Shown here: one piece after another, positions 2,574-58,929 of the stretch
Layout of the letters: each line of letters begins with the position of its first letter
How positions within the stretch are numbered: the first letter of the stretch is position 1
Origin: Bombiscardovia nodaiensis
GTDB taxonomy: Bacteria > Actinomycetota > Actinomycetes > Actinomycetales > Bifidobacteriaceae
Assembly: GCA_033127725.1 (NCBI GenBank)
Contig: AP026798.1
Coordinates: forward strand, 1,736,001-1,800,000
Direction of reading: 5' to 3'
DNA length: 64,000 nucleotides
The notes under the pieces: model-generated
Told to the model about the DNA's origin: nothing
The model's database searches: none
Seen by the model: only the letters and a program-made list of their open reading frames with translations
Translations under genes and position numbers: made by a program

Positions 2574-2888
2574 GCACAACCTCACCCGCTCAGTTTTGTT
2601 CGACATAGATTAGAAGCTGCGCTATATACCGCACAAACGACACGACACAGTCGCAGCGCACGGCCTGCAGAGCAGCGCTTCATCATACCCAGCAAGCAAA
2701 GCTAGCCACCGATTCACAGGTTTGTAGTTTCGGGTCAATGGAATCCGAGTGCGGACAATGCTAGACTGACGGCATAAGTAACAAGGGACTAACGCGCCTG
2801 CGGTTGGGGAACGGCTGGGCTGCGGTTAGACACACAAGAACTTTGAACGGCGCTACAGAGTGCCGTATATGGCTTAAGGGGTATAGAT
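2574..2888 (+). promoter_or_regulatory. leader of RCC1 gene 1 with blocks shared with RCC1 gene 2
   Basis: No gene is seen in these 315 bases. Two short blocks recur upstream of the second RCC1 gene: AATGCTAGA at 2757-2765 (also 55461-55469) and CTGCGGTTGGGGAAC at 2798-2812 (also, with one change, 55513-55527). The blocks are 32 bases apart here and about 43 there. The ribosome-binding site AAGGGG lies at about 2876-2881, 7 bases before the ATG. The shared blocks suggest a common promoter or leader RNA. Confidence 0.5.
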
Positions 2889-5800
2889 ATGCGACGGTTT
2901 CGCACAGTAAGCGCCATACTGGCGCTTATCTCCATGAGTGTCCTGGGGGGGGGGTCCACCAGTTCACTGACCCATCCCGCTCCAGCACACGCTGACGAAA
3001 CCTCCAACCACTTCCGCCTCAACCCCACCTCCGGCCCCGCCGCCGGTGGCACCGCCGCCACCATAACGCCCTACACTGTAAGCGGAGTGAAGTTCACTCA
3101 AATCGCAACAAAATGGGCGCACACACTCGCCATTGGAGACGACGGCAATACGTACGCATGGGGAGACAATAGGTATGGAGAGCTTGGCGACGGTTCTATG
3201 ATTCGACGCTTAACTCCAGCACGAGTACGAACACCGGCTGGGATTCGTTTCACACAAGTAGCTGTCAGTGGCAAAGAGAGTAATCATTCTCTAGCTTTGG
3301 GCACTGATGGTTACGCTTATTCTTGGGGTTACAATGATGTTGGACAGCTGGGCTTAGGAGACACTGCCAATCGCACTACACCGCAAAAAGTTCCTCTTCC
3401 TACAGGCGTACAACGTTTCACTTTTATTACAGCAGGATGGGATGCCAGCTTCGCTCTAGGAGACAACGGTAAAGTCTATGCATGGGGCCGGAACAACGGT
3501 GGGGAAAGTGCAGAAGGAGCACTTGGTGTTGGCGATACTAGCCACCGATCAATGCCCACCCCGGTGGTAGGCATACCTGCTACGGTTCGAATCACACAGT
3601 TCAGCGCAATTAGCAGAACTGCTATGGCGCTGGGAAACAACGGAATCATCTACGCCTGGGGACTCAATTATGGTGGGCAATTATGCACAGGCGATACCCT
3701 TTTCCGTAGCTCAGCAGTTGCCATCAACCCCCCTGTAGGATACAAGTTTACCCATGTTGACGCAGAGGACTGGACCGGTTTCGCACAATGCACCAACGGA
3801 AAACTCTACACTTGGGGCGGCAATCAATACGGACAATTCGGCAACGGGATAGTTGGCGGCAGTAATGTCACGCAGCCTACCCCGAATACGATTAGCCTGC
3901 CCGCTGGAGTACATATTACTCAGCTCACATTCGGATGCTTTCATACTATCGCGTTCAGCGACAACAACAGGACAGCATACACTTGGGGTTTTAACGGTTA
4001 TGGTCAGCTCGGTGACGGCACCACCACTAACAATCCAACGCCCAAACCCATACAAGCGCCAGCAGGAGTCACCTTCATCAGCGCATTCACAGGATTCTAT
4101 AGTTCTTTTGCTATCGGCAGTGACGGCAACACCTACAGCTGGGGGCAAAACGACACTAACGACGGCAAGGGAGGAATGCTCGGCGACGGCACCACCATTC
4201 AACGCAACACTCCCGTACGCGTGGGTGGTGTTATTAACATTACAAAAGTCACTATTGGAGGCCGGGTGACTACAGGCACGGTGAATGCGGTTTCTGGCAT
4301 CTGGTCTGGTATTACGCTGCCTCATGCTCCTGGTGATGTGGATGTGGTTGTGGAGTGGACATTGAACGGTGCTCCTCAGCCGAGTGAGACACTCAAATAC
4401 CGGTATTTAGACACGTTTACCGTCAGTTTCGACCTTGATGGTGCTCCCGGTAGCCCGCCCGTCACGCAGAGCGTGCTAGAGGGGTCGAAAGCAACGTGGC
4501 CGACCACACCCACATGGGGTGGTAAGTTGTTTACTGGCTGGTATGTGGATGGGAAACCATACACATTCAACGAGCCCGTCACTCGTTCGATTACTTTGAC
4601 CGCGCACTGGGAGCAATACACGTTCTCACTCAACCCCAGCTCAGGAAGCACCGCAGGCGGCACCACGGTCGCTATCACTCCCAACCCGAAGCAGTCAGCT
4701 ATCCAGTTCAGTCAAATCAGTGTGGGCTGGTACCACACCCTGGGCTTAGGATCAGACGGTCGCATCTACGCTTGGGGTAGAAACGATGCAGGCCAATTAG
4801 GTGACAACACCACTGATAACCATGTCGTGCCCATGGTCGTGAAGAACACACCAACCGGAGTGAAATACCGGCAAGTCGTGGCTGGACCTAACACCTCTTT
4901 TGCCTTGGGTAGTGATAACCGTTGGTACGCTTGGGGAGCCAACACTAGCGGACAGCTCGGCAACGGCAACACCACCAACCAGCTCACTCCCGTTGCTATC
5001 AGCATGCCCGCCGGAGTAAACACGTACACGCAGGTCAGCCCGGGAGAAAACCACACCCTCGCCCTCGGCGATGATGGTATCGCCTACGCATGGGGAGCCA
5101 ACACCAACGGGCAACTCGGTAACAACACAACCGTTAACAGTCTCAGCCCAGTCAAAGTACAGATTCCAGCTGGTGTCTTCCATTTCACCAGCGTTTCGGC
5201 CGGGTCCAGTCACTCCTTGGCTATTGGTGATAATGGTTTGGCGTACGCGTGGGGTTCCAACCAGTACGGGCAACTCGGCAGTGTACTCATTACCGTTGGT
5301 GATAAGAGCCTTGTACCCGTCGAAGTCCAACTCCCTGTTGGCTTGAGTAAGTTTAAGCAGGCTACTGCTAGCGTTGACTGGTCTATCGGTATTGGTGATA
5401 ATGGTCGTATCATCACCTGGGGGTACAACGGCGACTACGAACTAGGTAACGGCACCATGAGCAACCAGAGCCTACCAGCCGAAGCCCTCCTCCCCGCCGG
5501 CCTCACCTTCACCCAAGTGAACACCAACTCAGACAGCGCCATGAGTATCGCTAGTAACGGTCAAATCTACGCCTGGGGCTACAACGGGGCAGGACAACTC
5601 GGCACCGGCAGTCAAACCACCCCCACCAGCCCCATCACCGTCAACCCCAAACCCGGCACCACCTTCACCAAACTCATCACCGGCTGGAAACACACCATCG
5701 GCATCGACACCAGCGGCAACATCCACGCCTGGGGCGACAACGCTTCCGGCCAGCTCGGTGATAACCAAGGCGGCTCCCCCGGCGACCATAGCCTCACACC

Positions 5801-6176
5801 AGTCAGTTTGATACCCGTGCGCTTGAATATCACCGGCGTAACCGTAGACGGACTGACTCCTCAAACCGGACCCACCTACGACCCAGGCGACAGCACCTGG
5901 AAGATTACTACCCGCCCTCACGCGGAAGGCACCGTACCAGTCTCTATCGCTTGGAGTCTAGCTGGTGTACCCCAAACCAACTACCCCCTCACCTATACCT
6001 ACGGCACCTCCCGCACCCTCCCCGCAGCCGGAACCATCCCCCTCCACCGATTAAGCGGCAGCAGCCTACTCGCCATAAGTATTATCACGGCAGTATCTCT
6101 CACAGGCCACCACCTGTCGAAGGCCCGCAAACGCGAGCAAGGCCAAGGCTCACCCCGCCCTAACCACTCAAACTGA
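2889..6176 (+). CDS. phase-variable secreted RCC1-repeat surface protein 1
   Basis: A 1095-residue secreted protein. A signal peptide (about residues 1-36, ending AHA) contains three glycines encoded by a G10 tract. It is followed by a TIG-like start (LNPTSGPAAGGT), seven RCC1 repeats (about residues 65-450; motif YAWGxNxxGQLGDG), a TIG-like strand segment, one InlB/Listeria-Bacteroides repeat (about 506-575; GWYVDGK...LTAHW), a second TIG-like start, seven more RCC1 repeats (about 600-970), and a C-terminal LPAAG, hydrophobic helix and KARKREQ tail from about residue 1044. RCC1 repeats form seven-bladed beta-propellers, so two propellers are inferred. LPAAG looks like a variant sortase signal. 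Function is probably surface binding; the ligand is unknown. Its nearest relative is the gene at 55.6 kb. Confidence 0.88.
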   Translation: MRRFRTVSAILALISMSVLGGGSTSSLTHPAPAHADETSNHFRLNPTSGPAAGGTAATITPYTVSGVKFTQIATKWAHTLAIGDDGNTYAWGDNRYGELGDGSMIRRLTPARVRTPAGIRFTQVAVSGKESNHSLALGTDGYAYSWGYNDVGQLGLGDTANRTTPQKVPLPTGVQRFTFITAGWDASFALGDNGKVYAWGRNNGGESAEGALGVGDTSHRSMPTPVVGIPATVRITQFSAISRTAMALGNNGIIYAWGLNYGGQLCTGDTLFRSSAVAINPPVGYKFTHVDAEDWTGFAQCTNGKLYTWGGNQYGQFGNGIVGGSNVTQPTPNTISLPAGVHITQLTFGCFHTIAFSDNNRTAYTWGFNGYGQLGDGTTTNNPTPKPIQAPAGVTFISAFTGFYSSFAIGSDGNTYSWGQNDTNDGKGGMLGDGTTIQRNTPVRVGGVINITKVTIGGRVTTGTVNAVSGIWSGITLPHAPGDVDVVVEWTLNGAPQPSETLKYRYLDTFTVSFDLDGAPGSPPVTQSVLEGSKATWPTTPTWGGKLFTGWYVDGKPYTFNEPVTRSITLTAHWEQYTFSLNPSSGSTAGGTTVAITPNPKQSAIQFSQISVGWYHTLGLGSDGRIYAWGRNDAGQLGDNTTDNHVVPMVVKNTPTGVKYRQVVAGPNTSFALGSDNRWYAWGANTSGQLGNGNTTNQLTPVAISMPAGVNTYTQVSPGENHTLALGDDGIAYAWGANTNGQLGNNTTVNSLSPVKVQIPAGVFHFTSVSAGSSHSLAIGDNGLAYAWGSNQYGQLGSVLITVGDKSLVPVEVQLPVGLSKFKQATASVDWSIGIGDNGRIITWGYNGDYELGNGTMSNQSLPAEALLPAGLTFTQVNTNSDSAMSIASNGQIYAWGYNGAGQLGTGSQTTPTSPITVNPKPGTTFTKLITGWKHTIGIDTSGNIHAWGDNASGQLGDNQGGSPGDHSLTPVSLIPVRLNITGVTVDGLTPQTGPTYDPGDSTWKITTRPHAEGTVPVSIAWSLAGVPQTNYPLTYTYGTSRTLPAAGTIPLHRLSGSSLLAISIITAVSLTGHHLSKARKREQGQGSPRPNHSN
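2945..2954 (+). repeat. G10 homopolymer, predicted phase-variation switch
   Basis: Ten consecutive G in codons 19-22 of RCC1 gene 1. With ten G the frame runs through. With nine it meets TGA five codons after the tract, and with eleven a TGA about 12 codons after it. Slipped-strand change of one base would therefore abolish the protein. Confidence 0.8.
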
Positions 6177-6704
6177 AGCTAAGTATTCGGCTCACACCCA
6201 AGCCAGCCGTCAAGGCCGGAGCAAAGTATCCAATGCCCCGGCCACGCTCGACGGAGTGAAGCGCGCGAGCCTGCGATGCGAAAGCGAGCTGTTGGTGGGG
6301 TTGGTTGTGAAGCAATAAGAAGTTCCCCTTGCTGAACAAGCAACCCCACCAACAGCACCCCCAGCACCCAACACAGCATCAAAACGAAAACCCAACAGAG
6401 AGCCAGACCAATCGCCTCTTGGGCTGAGTGGAAATCTTGGGGAGGAGCATGAGCGGGGGACCATTGCTGTCAGCATAATGGGCGTACTATGGTAAGTAGG
6501 TTGGACGTATCTCTTCAGATTGTTTCAGACAGGGCAGGAATACCTTCGTTTTCTCCGCTCCTGACGGCAAAGTTCTGGCGATCGGTCCAGCTGCATCTAG
6601 AGGAACAATGCCCTGAGCATAGGCTAGAAAACGGGTTCGTACAGCTATTGAGCTGGCCACCCGTATAGCTGCCAGGCGGGATAAGAAAGAGGAAGTGGTT
6701 GTGC
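6177..6704. other. intergenic region between RCC1 gene 1 and the MFS exporter
   Basis: 528 bases without a convincing gene. It contains a perfect 16-base inverted repeat (6288-6303 with 6341-6356, listed separately). Short open frames on the minus strand are biased in composition, have no good ribosome-binding site and are not called. Confidence 0.5.
6288..6356. repeat. 16-bp perfect inverted repeat, possible terminator
   Basis: GCTGTTGGTGGGGTTG at 6288-6303 pairs perfectly with 6341-6356. The 37-base loop holds a smaller AGCAA/TTGCT stem. It lies about 110 bases downstream of RCC1 gene 1. There is no T-run on either side, so it may be a rho-independent-like stop, an RNA-stability hairpin or a small repeat element. 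Confidence 0.5.
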
Positions 6705-8354
6705 ATGCGCAAACCAGAGCTGACTGCCAGCAAGCAGGCGCTCAGTAGAGAGGCTTCGTTCAAGGACGGTCACCTGACACGACCGGCACTAATTTCCCTC
6801 TCTATTCTCACTGCCATCACCTTCCTGGGCAATTTCACCCAGCTGCAGTTGGCTAGCGCGCTACCCACTATTGTCAAAGAGTTTGGCATCTCCTTCACTG
6901 CCGGTCAGTGGCTCACGTCGGTTTTCCAGCTGGTGATGGGCGTAATGGTGCCGCTCACAGGCTTCCTGACGAAGCGTTTCTCCACCCGGCAGATTGTCAT
7001 CACGTCGATGACTATTTTCACTATCGGCTCTATTTTGAGCTGGCAGTCCACCTCCTTCACGCTTGTGCTGATCGGCCGTATTCTGGAGGCTGTGGGCACG
7101 GGTACTATGTGGCCGGTTCTGCAGATTACGGTGTTCTCCATTTATCCGCTGGCTAAGCGCGGTATGGCTATGGGCACGGTGGGCGTGGCCATGAGCGTGG
7201 CTCCGGCTATTGGTCCAACTTTTGGCGGCTGGCAGACTGATACGCACGGCTGGCGCTCAATTTTCCTTTCGCTGGCGGTGCTGGGCGCGATTGGCATGAT
7301 TGCTTCTGCGCTCTGGCTACACAATTTTGGCGAGACAGACAAGTCAATTAAGACGGATTTCTTCTCTGTGGCCCTGTCGATTTTCGGCTTCGGCGGCCTC
7401 ATGTTTGGCTTTACCAACATTGAAACCTACCCGATTACGAACCCGATGACTTGGCTGCCGATGGTGGTTGGTTTGATTGGCATTGTCTGGTTTGTAATGC
7501 GCCAGTTGCACCGGGCTAAGCCTCTGCTGAATTTGCGGGTGCTGAAGGTCAAGAACTTTACGGTGGGCACGGCTATTGCTTCGCTCTCTTTCTTCGCTTT
7601 CAGCTCGGTGACAGTGATTCTGCCGCTCTACATTCAGAATGACCGCGGTTTCTCGGCGACTATGTCGGGCCTGGTGATGCTGCCGGGTGCTATTGGCACG
7701 GCTATTGCCCAGTATTTCGGCGGGCGTTTGCTGGATCGGATGGGGGCGCGGCCTGTGGCGTTGACAGGTTGCACTATTCTTTTCATTGGCACTGTGGGCA
7801 TGAGCATGATTGGCTCTACTACATGGATTGGCATGGTTTCTATCCTGCAGTTTACCCGCCAGATTGGCATGGGCTTTACGCTGATGCCGTTGACAACTTG
7901 GTCCTTGAACAATCTGCCATCTGAGGACTTGTCTGCGGGCTCGGCCGTCACGAATACGGCCCGACAAATTGCTGGTGCTGTGGGCGCGCCGGTGCTGGTG
8001 ATTTTGATGGAGACGTTCGCTGCCAACCGTCATCAGTCTTTGGGCGGCGGGGCTTCTACGCTCATTCCTGCTGACATTTTCGGTGTCCAGTGGGCTTTGC
8101 GTATTTCGGCGCTCATTTGCTTCGGCATGTTGACTTTGGTTTACTTTGGGGTGCGCGGCGAGGATGCGGGTTCTGGTCGTGCTATGTCTCGCATGGTGAT
8201 GCGTCATATGCACTTCGTCCATGTGCCTGGCACTGCTAGTGCGCACCATTCTTCGAGCAGTAAGGAAGAGGCTGAGCAGAAGGAGAAGGCGGCGGCTGTG
8301 CAGATGACAACACCGGCCATCAACACGCCTGCTGATCCTAAGCACACTGACTGA
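6705..8354 (+). CDS. MFS drug exporter, EmrB/QacA (DHA2) type
   Basis: Predicted 14-helix proton-driven multidrug exporter of about 549 residues. Visible family motifs are LASALPTIVKEF in helix 1, the motif A-like GFLTKRFSTRQ after helix 2, RILEAVGTG in helix 4, and motif C-like GVAMSVAPAIGPTFGGW in helix 5. The C-terminus is a charged, cytosolic tail rich in Lys and Glu. AAGAGGAAG about ten bases before the ATG at 6705 decides the start; a TTG two codons upstream is less likely. It stands alone and is followed by a strong terminator. Substrate is unknown. Confidence 0.88.
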   Translation: MRKPELTASKQALSREASFKDGHLTRPALISLSILTAITFLGNFTQLQLASALPTIVKEFGISFTAGQWLTSVFQLVMGVMVPLTGFLTKRFSTRQIVITSMTIFTIGSILSWQSTSFTLVLIGRILEAVGTGTMWPVLQITVFSIYPLAKRGMAMGTVGVAMSVAPAIGPTFGGWQTDTHGWRSIFLSLAVLGAIGMIASALWLHNFGETDKSIKTDFFSVALSIFGFGGLMFGFTNIETYPITNPMTWLPMVVGLIGIVWFVMRQLHRAKPLLNLRVLKVKNFTVGTAIASLSFFAFSSVTVILPLYIQNDRGFSATMSGLVMLPGAIGTAIAQYFGGRLLDRMGARPVALTGCTILFIGTVGMSMIGSTTWIGMVSILQFTRQIGMGFTLMPLTTWSLNNLPSEDLSAGSAVTNTARQIAGAVGAPVLVILMETFAANRHQSLGGGASTLIPADIFGVQWALRISALICFGMLTLVYFGVRGEDAGSGRAMSRMVMRHMHFVHVPGTASAHHSSSSKEEAEQKEKAAAVQMTTPAINTPADPKHTD

Positions 8355-53426: not shown

Positions 53427-53436
53427 GGGGGGGGGG
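53427..53436. repeat. orphan G10 homopolymer
   Basis: Ten G directly after AT (ATG then G9) and preceded by CCTT. The frame from this ATG ends after 42 codons; frames for nine or eleven G end after fewer. Same length as the two G10 tracts in the RCC1 genes. Confidence 0.7.
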
Positions 53437-55626: not shown

Positions 55627-58600
55627 ATGCGAAACGTACGGGCTATCAGCACTGCCTTAGCACTATCCTTGACCATCCTGGGGGGGGGGTACGCTAACCT
55701 AGCGGCACCCACACCAGCCCACGCAGACCCGATTCAAGCCAACTCGCACTTCCACATTTCGCCAGCTTATGGCTCAGCCGCTGGGGACACGGACGTTCCC
55801 ATCACTCCTTACCCCGTTGTGGGAGTTAAATTTATCCAAATCAGTTCCCGCCTTAACCACACCCTCGCCATCGGCGACGACGGCAACACCTACGCATGGG
55901 GAGACAACACTTACGGTCAACTCGGCGACGGCACAACAACACAGAGGCTGACCCCAGTCAAAGTAAAAGTCCCAACAGGAGTCAAATTTACTCAAGTCAG
56001 TGCAGGAGGAGAGGGCGCTCACTCACTAGCTAGAGACGAAAATGGAAATGCTTACGCATGGGGGCACAATAACAAGGGCCAGCTTGGGTTTGGTGATACT
56101 ACAGACCGTCTCACACCTCAAAAGATTACTTTACCAAGTGGAATTCACTTCGGCAGAATAATTGCTGGAAATGACTTTAGTATCGGCTCATCATCTGACT
56201 ATCATGCTGGTCTATTCACTTGGGGCAATAATGCAGATGGTCAATTAGGTGTGGGAGACAACAATATCCGCACTACTCCCACCCTAGTAGCAGATCTTGG
56301 TTACAATTCCATGATTAGCACTCGGCAATCAACCGTAATGGTAGATGCCAACCCAGGAAGTGGAGGCAATAAAATCTACGCTTGGGGAGGTAATCAATAC
56401 GGGCAACTCTTAACAGGCGATCGAGTAAATCGCAATGCTCCAGTTTCAATCAACCCTCCTTCTGGAGTTAACTACCTCGCTAACATACATTTAGGCGCTG
56501 GCACCGCAAATTCAGGATCATACGGCGATACAATCTACAGCTGGGGTCAAGGCGGTAGAGGGCAAATGGGCGACGGCAGCGGTAACACAGGTGCAGACAC
56601 GCTCATTACCACACTTCAGCAAGTCACTTTCAGCATGCCAGCAGGAGTAAAAGTCGTAAGTCTCAGCCGTGGTAATTGGCACGCTATTGCCGTTGGAGAC
56701 GACAGAAAAATGTACGCATGGGGCAATAACTGGTACGGGGCACTCGGCAACTCTTCCACTCCAACTGGAGTTCCAGTAAACGTTAGTAATGATCCATCCA
56801 TCTGCGCTACGCCAACACTAGTAGAACTGCCAACTGGAGTAACTACAACAAATATCACTACAGGCGACTGGAACTCTTTTGCTATCGGCGATGACGGCAA
56901 TACATACGCATGGGGCAGGAACGACCACGGTCAGCTGGGTGACGGTACTACTATTGACAGGTACACACCGGTACGCGTCGGATCAAAAGTCAACATCACC
57001 AAGGTCACCTTTGACGGCGCATCTGCGTCAGGCACCACCAACCCCGTATCAAGCATCTGGACCGGCAAAGCACCAGCACACCCGGCCGGGCAAACCACTG
57101 TAACAATAGAGTGGAAACTCAATGGAATTCCCCAACCCTCAGAAACCTACGATTTTAAGTATTTAGCAGCACATACAGTCACCTTCAAAAGTGGTAAACC
57201 GGGCGATTCTGATATTAAACAGACCGTACTTGATGGAAACTACGCGAGCTACCCAACACCAGCCCCCTCTTGGGCCACGCACGCTTTTAATGGCTGGTAT
57301 GTAGACGGGCATCTCTACGATTTTGGAACCCAAATCACTCAAGACCTAACTTTAACCGCCCAATGGGGCGATTTTACTAGTATGAGTCCAACCAGCGGTC
57401 CTACTCGCGGGTACACTGATGTCTCATTTGCGGCACCACCCGGAATCCGTTTTACACAAATTGCAGTTGGAACCAATGGTGGTATTGCAATTGGTAACGA
57501 TGCTCATACATATCAATGGCAAGAAGACTTTCAAAATAGGCGTATGACCCAGGTGAAGACACCAGTACAATTTGTAAAAATCAGCGCAGGCAAAAACCAT
57601 AATCTTGCACTAGGCGTTGATGGCAAAGTGTATGCTTGGGGCAGCAATTACGCAGGACAACTCGGTATACAAACTGATGAAAATGGTATCACAGGGCTTG
57701 CAACCATTTATCCTCCAGTACAGGTGACGATGCCTGACACGATACGTATTATTTCTATCAGTGCCGGAGGGCTACATTCTCTCGCACTAACAGAGAACGG
57801 CACTGTTTATTCATGGGGCAGCAAGAATCAATCACAATTAGGAGATGGAGTCCAGCCTATCTACCCTCAATATGGTGGAAGCTGGTCAGGCCGTGCGCAA
57901 CCCCAGCCCATCAGGACAAGTATCAAATTCAAGGCAGTATTTGGGGGGAAAATGTCATCCTTCGCTATAGCCCTTGATGGCACACCATATGCATGGGGAG
58001 GTCTCGTTACTCTCGGTACACCAGCTGGCAGTGACCCGAATATTCCCACAGCGGTAGATACAAACGTGAAATTCAAGTCAATAAGTGTTGGGGAAAATAC
58101 TGTCATGGGATTAACTGAAGACGGCAAAGCATACGGCTGGGGCGGAAATTATTTCGGCCAAATCGGTGCAGGTAACATAGATCCCAATACCAATCAGGTA
58201 AATCCTCAATCGGTTAATGTCCCAACACAGACCAACACCAGCCTTCGTTTTAAAAGCATCAGCGTAGGAGGGTCAGGTGATGCAACTCTTGCTATTACTG
58301 AAGATGGAACGGCCTACACATGGGGTTGTAATTATTATGGATTACTAGGTAATGGAAGCAAAGACAGTCTCCCTCACGTAACACCTACGAAGCTTAAAAC
58401 TGACCTTAAATATATCGCTTTAAACGCAAATGATTCATTTACCAATTGGTTAGCGGCCAATGGTTTTGCTGCCGGAATAGCAGCTGATGGAAATATCTAT
58501 AGTTGGGGAGATACATGGTCAGCAGGCGATCGATACCTTTCACCAAAGCAAATACCATCACCCCAACCGATTGTCACCCAGGTTAAGTTTGGTAGCACTC

Positions 58601-58929
58601 CAGGAATCTATCCCCATTTTAATGACAATAGCTGGAACGGCACTGCTGACTATAAATGGCACGTATATTCACCACCGCACACTCCAGATGAAACTGTTGA
58701 TGTGGAAATCAGTTGGACTCTGGGAGGCGTGGCGCAAGAACCCATTAAGTTCAAATTCAGGTACTACTCGTACTTTGACTTGCCCGCAGCCGGTGCCATA
58801 CCCCTTCAGCGGCTGAGTGGAGGCATGCTGCTAGCTCTCACAGCCGCAGGCGCTCTCATATACGCAGGGTTCGCCTACTCCAAACGCAAACGCGGCAGGC
58901 ACGTAGGCCTTGGCCGGCGAAGAGCATAA
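55627..58929 (+). CDS. phase-variable secreted RCC1-repeat surface protein 2
   Basis: 1100 residues with the same architecture as the 2.9-6.2 kb protein. Signal peptide (about 1-36, ending AHA) with three G10-encoded glycines, a TIG-like start (ISPAYGSAAGDTDV), seven RCC1 repeats (YAWGDNTYGQLGDG and relatives), a TIG-like strand region, one InlB-type repeat (about 514-580; GWYVDGH...LTAQW), then seven more repeats. Several repeats in the second set are degenerate (YQWQEDF, YAWGGLVTLG). LPAAG lies at residues 1052-1056, then a helix and KRKRGRH. The middle is AT-richer than gene 1. It lies just beyond the IS, at the edge of the accessory island. Surface adhesion is inferred. Confidence 0.87.
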   Translation: MRNVRAISTALALSLTILGGGYANLAAPTPAHADPIQANSHFHISPAYGSAAGDTDVPITPYPVVGVKFIQISSRLNHTLAIGDDGNTYAWGDNTYGQLGDGTTTQRLTPVKVKVPTGVKFTQVSAGGEGAHSLARDENGNAYAWGHNNKGQLGFGDTTDRLTPQKITLPSGIHFGRIIAGNDFSIGSSSDYHAGLFTWGNNADGQLGVGDNNIRTTPTLVADLGYNSMISTRQSTVMVDANPGSGGNKIYAWGGNQYGQLLTGDRVNRNAPVSINPPSGVNYLANIHLGAGTANSGSYGDTIYSWGQGGRGQMGDGSGNTGADTLITTLQQVTFSMPAGVKVVSLSRGNWHAIAVGDDRKMYAWGNNWYGALGNSSTPTGVPVNVSNDPSICATPTLVELPTGVTTTNITTGDWNSFAIGDDGNTYAWGRNDHGQLGDGTTIDRYTPVRVGSKVNITKVTFDGASASGTTNPVSSIWTGKAPAHPAGQTTVTIEWKLNGIPQPSETYDFKYLAAHTVTFKSGKPGDSDIKQTVLDGNYASYPTPAPSWATHAFNGWYVDGHLYDFGTQITQDLTLTAQWGDFTSMSPTSGPTRGYTDVSFAAPPGIRFTQIAVGTNGGIAIGNDAHTYQWQEDFQNRRMTQVKTPVQFVKISAGKNHNLALGVDGKVYAWGSNYAGQLGIQTDENGITGLATIYPPVQVTMPDTIRIISISAGGLHSLALTENGTVYSWGSKNQSQLGDGVQPIYPQYGGSWSGRAQPQPIRTSIKFKAVFGGKMSSFAIALDGTPYAWGGLVTLGTPAGSDPNIPTAVDTNVKFKSISVGENTVMGLTEDGKAYGWGGNYFGQIGAGNIDPNTNQVNPQSVNVPTQTNTSLRFKSISVGGSGDATLAITEDGTAYTWGCNYYGLLGNGSKDSLPHVTPTKLKTDLKYIALNANDSFTNWLAANGFAAGIAADGNIYSWGDTWSAGDRYLSPKQIPSPQPIVTQVKFGSTPGIYPHFNDNSWNGTADYKWHVYSPPHTPDETVDVEISWTLGGVAQEPIKFKFRYYSYFDLPAAGAIPLQRLSGGMLLALTAAGALIYAGFAYSKRKRGRHVGLGRRRA
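55680..55689 (+). repeat. G10 homopolymer, predicted phase-variation switch
   Basis: Ten G in the signal-peptide codons of RCC1 gene 2, in frame. With nine G the frame stops at TAG in the third codon after the tract (ACG CTA ACC TAG); with eleven it stops at TAA after GTA CGC. Confidence 0.8.

Follow-up and report, generated by a model that had tools for sequence, protein, structure and literature searches.

The ten-G tract (G10) inside the signal peptide of a 1095-codon RCC1-repeat surface protein gene of Bombiscardovia nodaiensis is very probably a slipped-strand phase-variation switch, that is, a contingency locus, and it is one of 27 tracts in this genome that occupy nearly the same place in one kind of leader. 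The gene lies in a window of 64,000 nucleotides (64 kb, the whole stretch of DNA that was analysed), for which a sequence-only reading had noted the tract and explained it in the same way; the observation is confirmed, and the interpretation is supported and extended by genome-wide and cross-species data.

Results

The probable switch tract of the window gene

The tract that the sequence-only reading had placed in the signal peptide contains exactly ten G (Table 1). When lengths of 6–14 were simulated, the frame of the window gene remained open with G7, G10, and G13, and translation ended after 25, 26, and 27 residues with G6, G9, and G12 and after 34, 35, and 36 residues with G8, G11, and G14, in agreement with the earlier frame arithmetic (G10 open, a stop about 5 codons past the tract with G9 and about 12 codons past it with G11). 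The second gene that had been said to show the same arrangement is indeed present, its simulated off lengths being 22–25 residues. The window tract has the make-up of a contingency locus: a repeat of at least eight bases in the 5′ coding region, where a one-base change shifts the frame, with both off frames ending early and without a substitute start in the 700 nt downstream. A downstream start making slippage harmless, which had been named beforehand as evidence against a switch, was not found in these 700 nt with the Shine-Dalgarno motifs tested; the two window genes together have ten in-frame starts past their tracts, 0 of 10 with such a motif, and all ten fall past the signal peptide, the first being codon 67 (GTG) in the window gene and codon 65 in the second gene.

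The protein-database entry for the window gene (P0003, 850 aa) begins at codon 246, which counts against the switch; we read this start as an annotation choice. Entries P0003, P0009, P0011, P0036, and P0063 of the switch family all begin within the tract region or past it and consequently lack the signal peptide in their annotation, and this may serve as a warning about database entries of switch proteins.

The 1095-residue protein matches PF00415 with 430 bits in 11 stretches, above the gathering score (Pfam), and has one Flg_new repeat in addition; the second protein matches PF00415 with 327 bits in 10 stretches (Pfam). A two-propeller structure is predicted from the Pfam matches and from sequence matches to solved RCC1-fold chains (UVR8, HERC2, and RCC1). 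The 1095-residue protein also has the features of a sortase-anchored surface protein, with the motif LPAAG and not the canonical LPXTG, and its anchoring is predicted. Residues 1–60, used as a database query, retrieved five proteins, four from the B. nodaiensis genome and one from B. apis. A promoter scan of positions 2600–2960 returned no sigma-70-like site. Of the ORFs beside the gene, the two larger ones that were scanned encode an MFS transporter (6699–8354) and a solute-binding protein (885–2087), and the gene is not, as judged from these two, the first of a cluster with its own sortase, as is the case for the B. breve-type pilus. Elsewhere in the window, a third G10 (53427–53436) falls outside any recognised gene, with a Schlafen-type helicase ORF on one side and a mutator-type transposase ORF on the other, and a transposase ORF (PF00872, 54312–55277) stands directly upstream of the second switch gene.

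Table 1. Features of the two probable switch genes in the window
Feature	Position	Strand	Remarks
RCC1/Flg_new surface protein gene	2889..6176	+	1095 codons, in frame as assembled; ORF list, Pfam
Shine-Dalgarno-like AAGGGG	2876..2881	+	read from the sequence, ahead of ATG 2889
Probable signal peptide MRRFRTVSAILALISMSVLGGGSTSSLTHPAPAHA	2889..2993	+	cleavage after AHA judged by eye
G10 switch tract	2945..2954	+	56 nt after the start codon, inside the signal peptide
N-terminal RCC1 region, more variable half	3039..4178	+	about codons 51–430; approximate limits
Flg_new (Listeria-Bacteroides repeat)	4416..4607	+	residues 510–573; Pfam
C-terminal RCC1 region, more conserved	4626..5768	+	about codons 580–960; approximate limits
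Sortase-type C-terminus	6018..6173	+	LPAAG, then hydrophobic stretch, basic tail; from the sequence
Second RCC1 surface protein gene	55627..58929	+	1100 codons, in frame as assembled; ORF list, Pfam
Probable signal peptide, second gene	55627..55725	+	cleavage after AHA judged by eye
G10 switch tract, second gene	55680..55689	+	53 nt after the start codon
Sortase-type C-terminus, second protein, LPAAG	58780..58926	+	from the sequence

A genome-wide set behind one leader

In the B. nodaiensis genome, which comprises a 2,288,291-base chromosome and one further contig, all 53 G-tracts of at least eight bases were inspected, and 27 of them lie on the coding strand within a single type of signal peptide, 53–71 nt past a start codon, the distance being exactly 56 nt in 20 of the 27; the leader start codons were picked by script, and two leaders (62 and 71 nt) could start later. 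Random placement would give about 0.7 such tracts against the 27 seen (P about 6e-37, with ~1,900 genes assumed from the genome size and a 31-nt zone per gene), a value to be read with the 27 genes being paralogues and hence not 27 independent events. The contention that ten-G tracts do not arise by chance in such a place stands for the placement after the start codon, which is rare and accounts for 27 of 53 tracts, but not for the run of G itself, since eight-G windows are not rare in the 64 kb (9 seen, shuffle mean 3.76, and 7 of 100 shuffles reaching 9). Left out of the set were B. nodaiensis 489950 and B. apis 1699760, which pass the leader filter with bodies of 51 and 23 codons, and B. 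nodaiensis 1598802, an in-frame G10 in an RCC1 ORF with a different leader.

The bodies of the 27 switch genes are RCC1 in 21 (by motif count, with Pfam agreeing for the two window genes), LRR in five, and Flg_new alone in one (the last two classes by Pfam). The use of the switch on RCC1 proteins, as the sequence-only reading had it, is thus borne out but is not confined to them, the same G10 leader switch being carried by internalin-like LRR proteins at C1:185736, 266597, 340962, 1513029, and 1806131 (Pfam). As assembled, 20 of the genes are in frame and 7 are out of frame, with out-of-frame bodies open for 586–1148 codons; 26 of the 27 tracts are G10 and one is G11. In addition, C10 tracts stand behind the signal peptides of other surface-type ORFs at C1:1541839, 1728654, 1932317, 2078892, and 2100683 (1 in frame, 4 out), three of which bear LAxTG tails; these five loci are likely B. 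breve-type switches.

Conservation of the DNA at the tract

A demand of the LGGG protein motif for the tract was considered and rejected, because tract-less paralogues encode LGGG with mixed codons: C1:539954 spells the same LGGG as GGA GGT GGA, and 1683543 writes GGA GGT GGG GGG. In the bodies of the 27 switch genes, GGG makes up 309 of 3192 Gly codons (9.7%), and GGG GGG GGG occurs at 0 of 49 Gly-Gly-Gly positions in the switch-gene bodies of B. nodaiensis and B. apis. Off-frame stops follow the tract at medians of 3 and 8 codons, versus 18 and 17 at body positions (67 related genes, so that the P values are not independent). The scarcity of GGG in the bodies, the mixed-codon LGGG paralogues, and the early off-frame stops indicate that selection acts on the DNA, not on the protein, at this site.

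Probable switch loci in related genomes

The genomes of B. apis, B. xylocopae, and B. actinocoloniiforme contain 84, 112, and 54 G-tracts of at least eight bases, respectively, part of which were fetched, so that the following locus counts are lower bounds. The fetched stretches hold at least 40 switch loci in B. apis (8 G10 and 32 G11; 9 in frame, 31 out), at least five in B. actinocoloniiforme (three G11, one G12, and one G13; 1 in frame, 4 out), and at least five in B. xylocopae (four G12 and one G13; 2 in frame, 3 out, with three loci judged on short or contig-cut bodies). A leader pattern matched 21 times in B. nodaiensis and 34 times in B. apis, and its reversed control 0 times. Among 27 genus genomes, five had a match and four were judged to have the true leader, the matches dropped by eye as not this leader being 1 of 1 in genome G021 and 2 of 4 in B. 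actinocoloniiforme; in genomes of the genus that have RCC1 families but are not among the four carriers, 0–1 matches were obtained. According to the genome report, the carpenter bee Xylocopa appendiculata was the source of both B. apis KimH and the plasmid-bearing B. nodaiensis Kim37-2, and PacBio sequencing was used for the two genomes (PMC10433979); B. actinocoloniiforme DSM 22766 is a bumblebee isolate with 1,830,060 bases sequenced by Illumina (PMC4582582). The four carriers appear to come from carpenter bees and bumblebees, B. xylocopae judging by its name.

Tract lengths and their explanation

Tract lengths are near-uniform within each genome and independent of the length that is in frame (Fisher 1.0 and 0.32), and a tuning of the lengths to the reading frame was rejected for this reason. 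Such lengths fit an unselected slippage equilibrium and, equally, a length-calling bias; nothing in the current on/off states points to selection, and some of these states could stem from length-calling. For 7 of the 27 B. nodaiensis loci, a B. apis partner was found that differs at no more than 12 of 116 flanking nt; in every one of these seven pairs the tract is G10 in frame in B. nodaiensis and G11 out of frame in B. apis, as in 68483/461214 (2 mismatches), 603768/1481284 (2), and 1977548/266623 (3). Because most tracts are G10 in B. nodaiensis and G11 in B. apis, these one-G differences may restate genome-typical lengths and not seven independent switches; related loci differing in length, with both states represented, as is expected of contingency loci, are seen here between species and at genome-typical lengths. 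In the pair 1977548/266623, the two genes are ~97% identical over 3.3 kb outside one sharp divergent island at nt 420–900, and 98–100% identical in the 240 nt upstream; the average nucleotide identity of the two species is given as 76.4% (PMC10433979). This likeness reflects either a recent copy transfer between the species, possibly between symbionts co-resident in the same bee host, or an unusual constraint on both, and in either event, provided that the lengths were called correctly, the tract has changed within a short time.

Were the calls wrong, the tracts would be real but their out-of-frame states would be homopolymer-length errors, most genes being fixed in frame in living cells. We regard this as unlikely. 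The two Bombiscardovia genomes are indeed PacBio assemblies (PMC10433979), each genome has one typical length independent of frame, and deposited G-tract lengths were found unreliable by the B. breve authors, who warn that they can be wrong (PMC9187656). However, other G/C tracts in the same assemblies were called at 8–13 (B. nodaiensis) and 8–12 (B. apis), the Illumina-sequenced B. actinocoloniiforme (PMC4582582) also has lengths of 11, 12, and 13 with 4 of 5 loci out of frame, and length errors do not explain why the Gly codons are all GGG at the leader site but not in the bodies.

Slippage might instead take place in RNA polymerase or the ribosome at a fixed DNA length, resulting in mixed frames and constant low expression from the out-of-frame genes. 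Slippage of this sort readily occurs on runs of ten identical bases, and the lengths look uniform within a genome; nevertheless, it would not predict similar loci differing by one G, and 20 of the 27 B. nodaiensis genes require no correction, which makes this explanation a distinctly improbable one.

The genes are also mosaic. In 13 of 14 compared pairs (7 between species and 7 within a genome), the first 150 nt are 82–99% identical, the exception being an RCC1/LRR pair with 68%; past the leader, in the first propeller or LRR region, identity drops to 40–65% in most pairs, and in the second half it is back to 90–100% in some, other pairs remaining at 45–80% throughout. Together with the presence of the same leader type before RCC1, LRR, and Flg_new bodies, this pattern would suit a leader and tract segment kept alike as a recombination joint for swapping bodies, with the G-run as a by-product of gene conversion. 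There is little probability in this either, as the leader protein persists in tract-less paralogues, where its Gly codons are mixed, the leader sequences vary between genes yet retain the run, and the early off-frame stops are left unexplained. Averaged over an eight-member subfamily, amino-acid identity amounts to 55% for the N-terminal propeller, 72% for the C-terminal propeller, and 60% for residues 1–36 (residues 1–22 being counted for five B. nodaiensis members only), so that, as far as the protein is concerned, conservation is not highest in the leader. When the fetched stretches were searched for intact copies that could have donated the variable N-terminal segment, 16 of 20 long B. nodaiensis members had no non-self match at body offset 600. 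Finally, decay of the out-of-frame genes as pseudogenes is very hard to credit, since 6 of the 38 in B. nodaiensis and B. apis are short (138, 218, 388, 549, 560, and 586 codons) but the remaining 32 are open for 729–1148 codons.

Gene orientation and mismatch repair

The dnaA gene lies at C1:1.7 kb in B. nodaiensis, at 1.5 kb in B. apis, and at 1,399 kb in B. actinocoloniiforme. With the terminus taken as opposite the origin, the switch genes are transcribed towards the origin, head-on to replication, in 27 of 27 cases in B. nodaiensis, 40 of 40 in B. apis, and 5 of 5 in B. actinocoloniiforme (from coordinates, by hand), altogether 72 of 72 in three genomes; of the other ORFs in the same stretches (at least 150 residues, from rough ORF calls), 107 of 281 in B. 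nodaiensis and 17 of 55 in B. apis are head-on. Part of this bias is a family trait, because the tract-less RCC1 ORFs of B. nodaiensis are head-on in 15 of 18 cases; G/C tracts outside the switch genes show no orientation bias (12 of 26). Inversions around the origin would preserve the head-on orientation. A MutS_V match was obtained in 0 of the 4 carrier genomes, against 11 of 14 controls, whereas each of the four has NucS, which is not known to act on small indels.

Discussion

In the phase-variation mechanism that we favour, the tract would gain or lose a G during replication. With G10, or a length of the same class modulo 3, signal peptide and body would be read in one frame and the product exported, the LPAAG-type C-terminus then anchoring it to the cell wall, and with other lengths translation would end after ~25–36 codons, with no exported product. 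The shared module consists of the ribosome site, the start, a basic-then-hydrophobic leader, and the LGGG tract, and belongs to 27 genes in B. nodaiensis and at least 40 in B. apis; the propeller and LRR surface proteins displayed by any one cell would thus be a single combination out of a very large number. We infer that slippage is ongoing within a clone and that the proteins are exported and wall-anchored. Adhesion to, or contact with, the host, neighbours, or phage would be the most likely use, as suggested by the propeller and LRR folds, the variable N-terminal half, and the gut habitat.

We also put forward, tentatively and with less than even confidence, a wider picture of combinatorial surface variation on the scale of the best-known pathogens, in which 27 to 40 or more poly-G-switched proteins stand behind one leader, the mosaic N-terminal region changes fast, and the head-on orientation is kept because it feeds slippage without MutS repair. 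If these views are true, the genes represent a very large set of candidate phase-variable surface proteins for a Gram-positive commensal, and we know of no larger one. They would also provide a regulatory logic for the puzzling RCC1 families of bee bifidobacteria and would raise two testable questions, namely whether symbionts in insect guts switch their surfaces combinatorially in contact with host, phage, or neighbours and whether contingency loci are held head-on because their mutation rate is thereby increased.

The switch set is worth comparing with several known systems. Neisseria and Campylobacter have many poly-G contingency loci per genome acting on surface functions; these organisms are Gram-negative, and mostly varied genes and sites are involved, whereas here one leader module with the tract at one position serves a large family in an actinobacterial commensal. 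The LRR bodies are like internalin-type LRR surface proteins in combining LRR_4/LRR_8 with Flg_new and, mostly, a sortase-type tail, but this is a resemblance only, as the NCBIfam internalin models matched far below their cut-offs in the three LRR bodies tested. Comparable with the main part of the set are the RCC1-repeat surface proteins reported for honeybee bifidobacteria, with 19 copies (PMC3447821) or 7–24 per genome (PMC4449606), which likewise combine RCC1 with Flg_new and a sortase-type C-terminus, exist in many diverging copies, and are presumed to make host contact (PMC3447821, PMC4449606). The words "phase" and "homopolymer" are absent from the main text of PMC4449606, as are "phase variation" and "homopolymer" from PMC3447821.

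The nearest precedent for the switch itself is provided by the sortase-dependent pili of B. breve UCC2003 (Bbr_0113 and Bbr_1889), for which ON/OFF slippage of a G-tract was shown by deep sequencing and microscopy (PMC9187656). The sequence-only reading was right in treating G-tract variation of surface proteins as established, but its reference to other genera overlooked this published case within the same family (PMC9187656). As in the genes described here, a 5′ G-run separates the Sec signal from a body of the LPXTG type, and the tract lengths tabulated for relatives are 8–13 (PMC9187656). In contrast, the B. breve system is reported to comprise one or two G-tract clusters per genome, the tract being in the gene that opens a pilus cluster equipped with a sortase of its own (PMC9187656), whereas 27 and at least 40 genes, as read from assemblies, share one leader kind before RCC1 and LRR bodies here. 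A search of the open-licence literature returned no paper linking G-tract phase variation with RCC1 surface families. Altogether, the mechanism is of a known kind, and the novelty, as far as we have searched, lies in the large scale on which it would operate, in RCC1 and LRR proteins being its objects, in a leader common to the genes, and in their uniform orientation.
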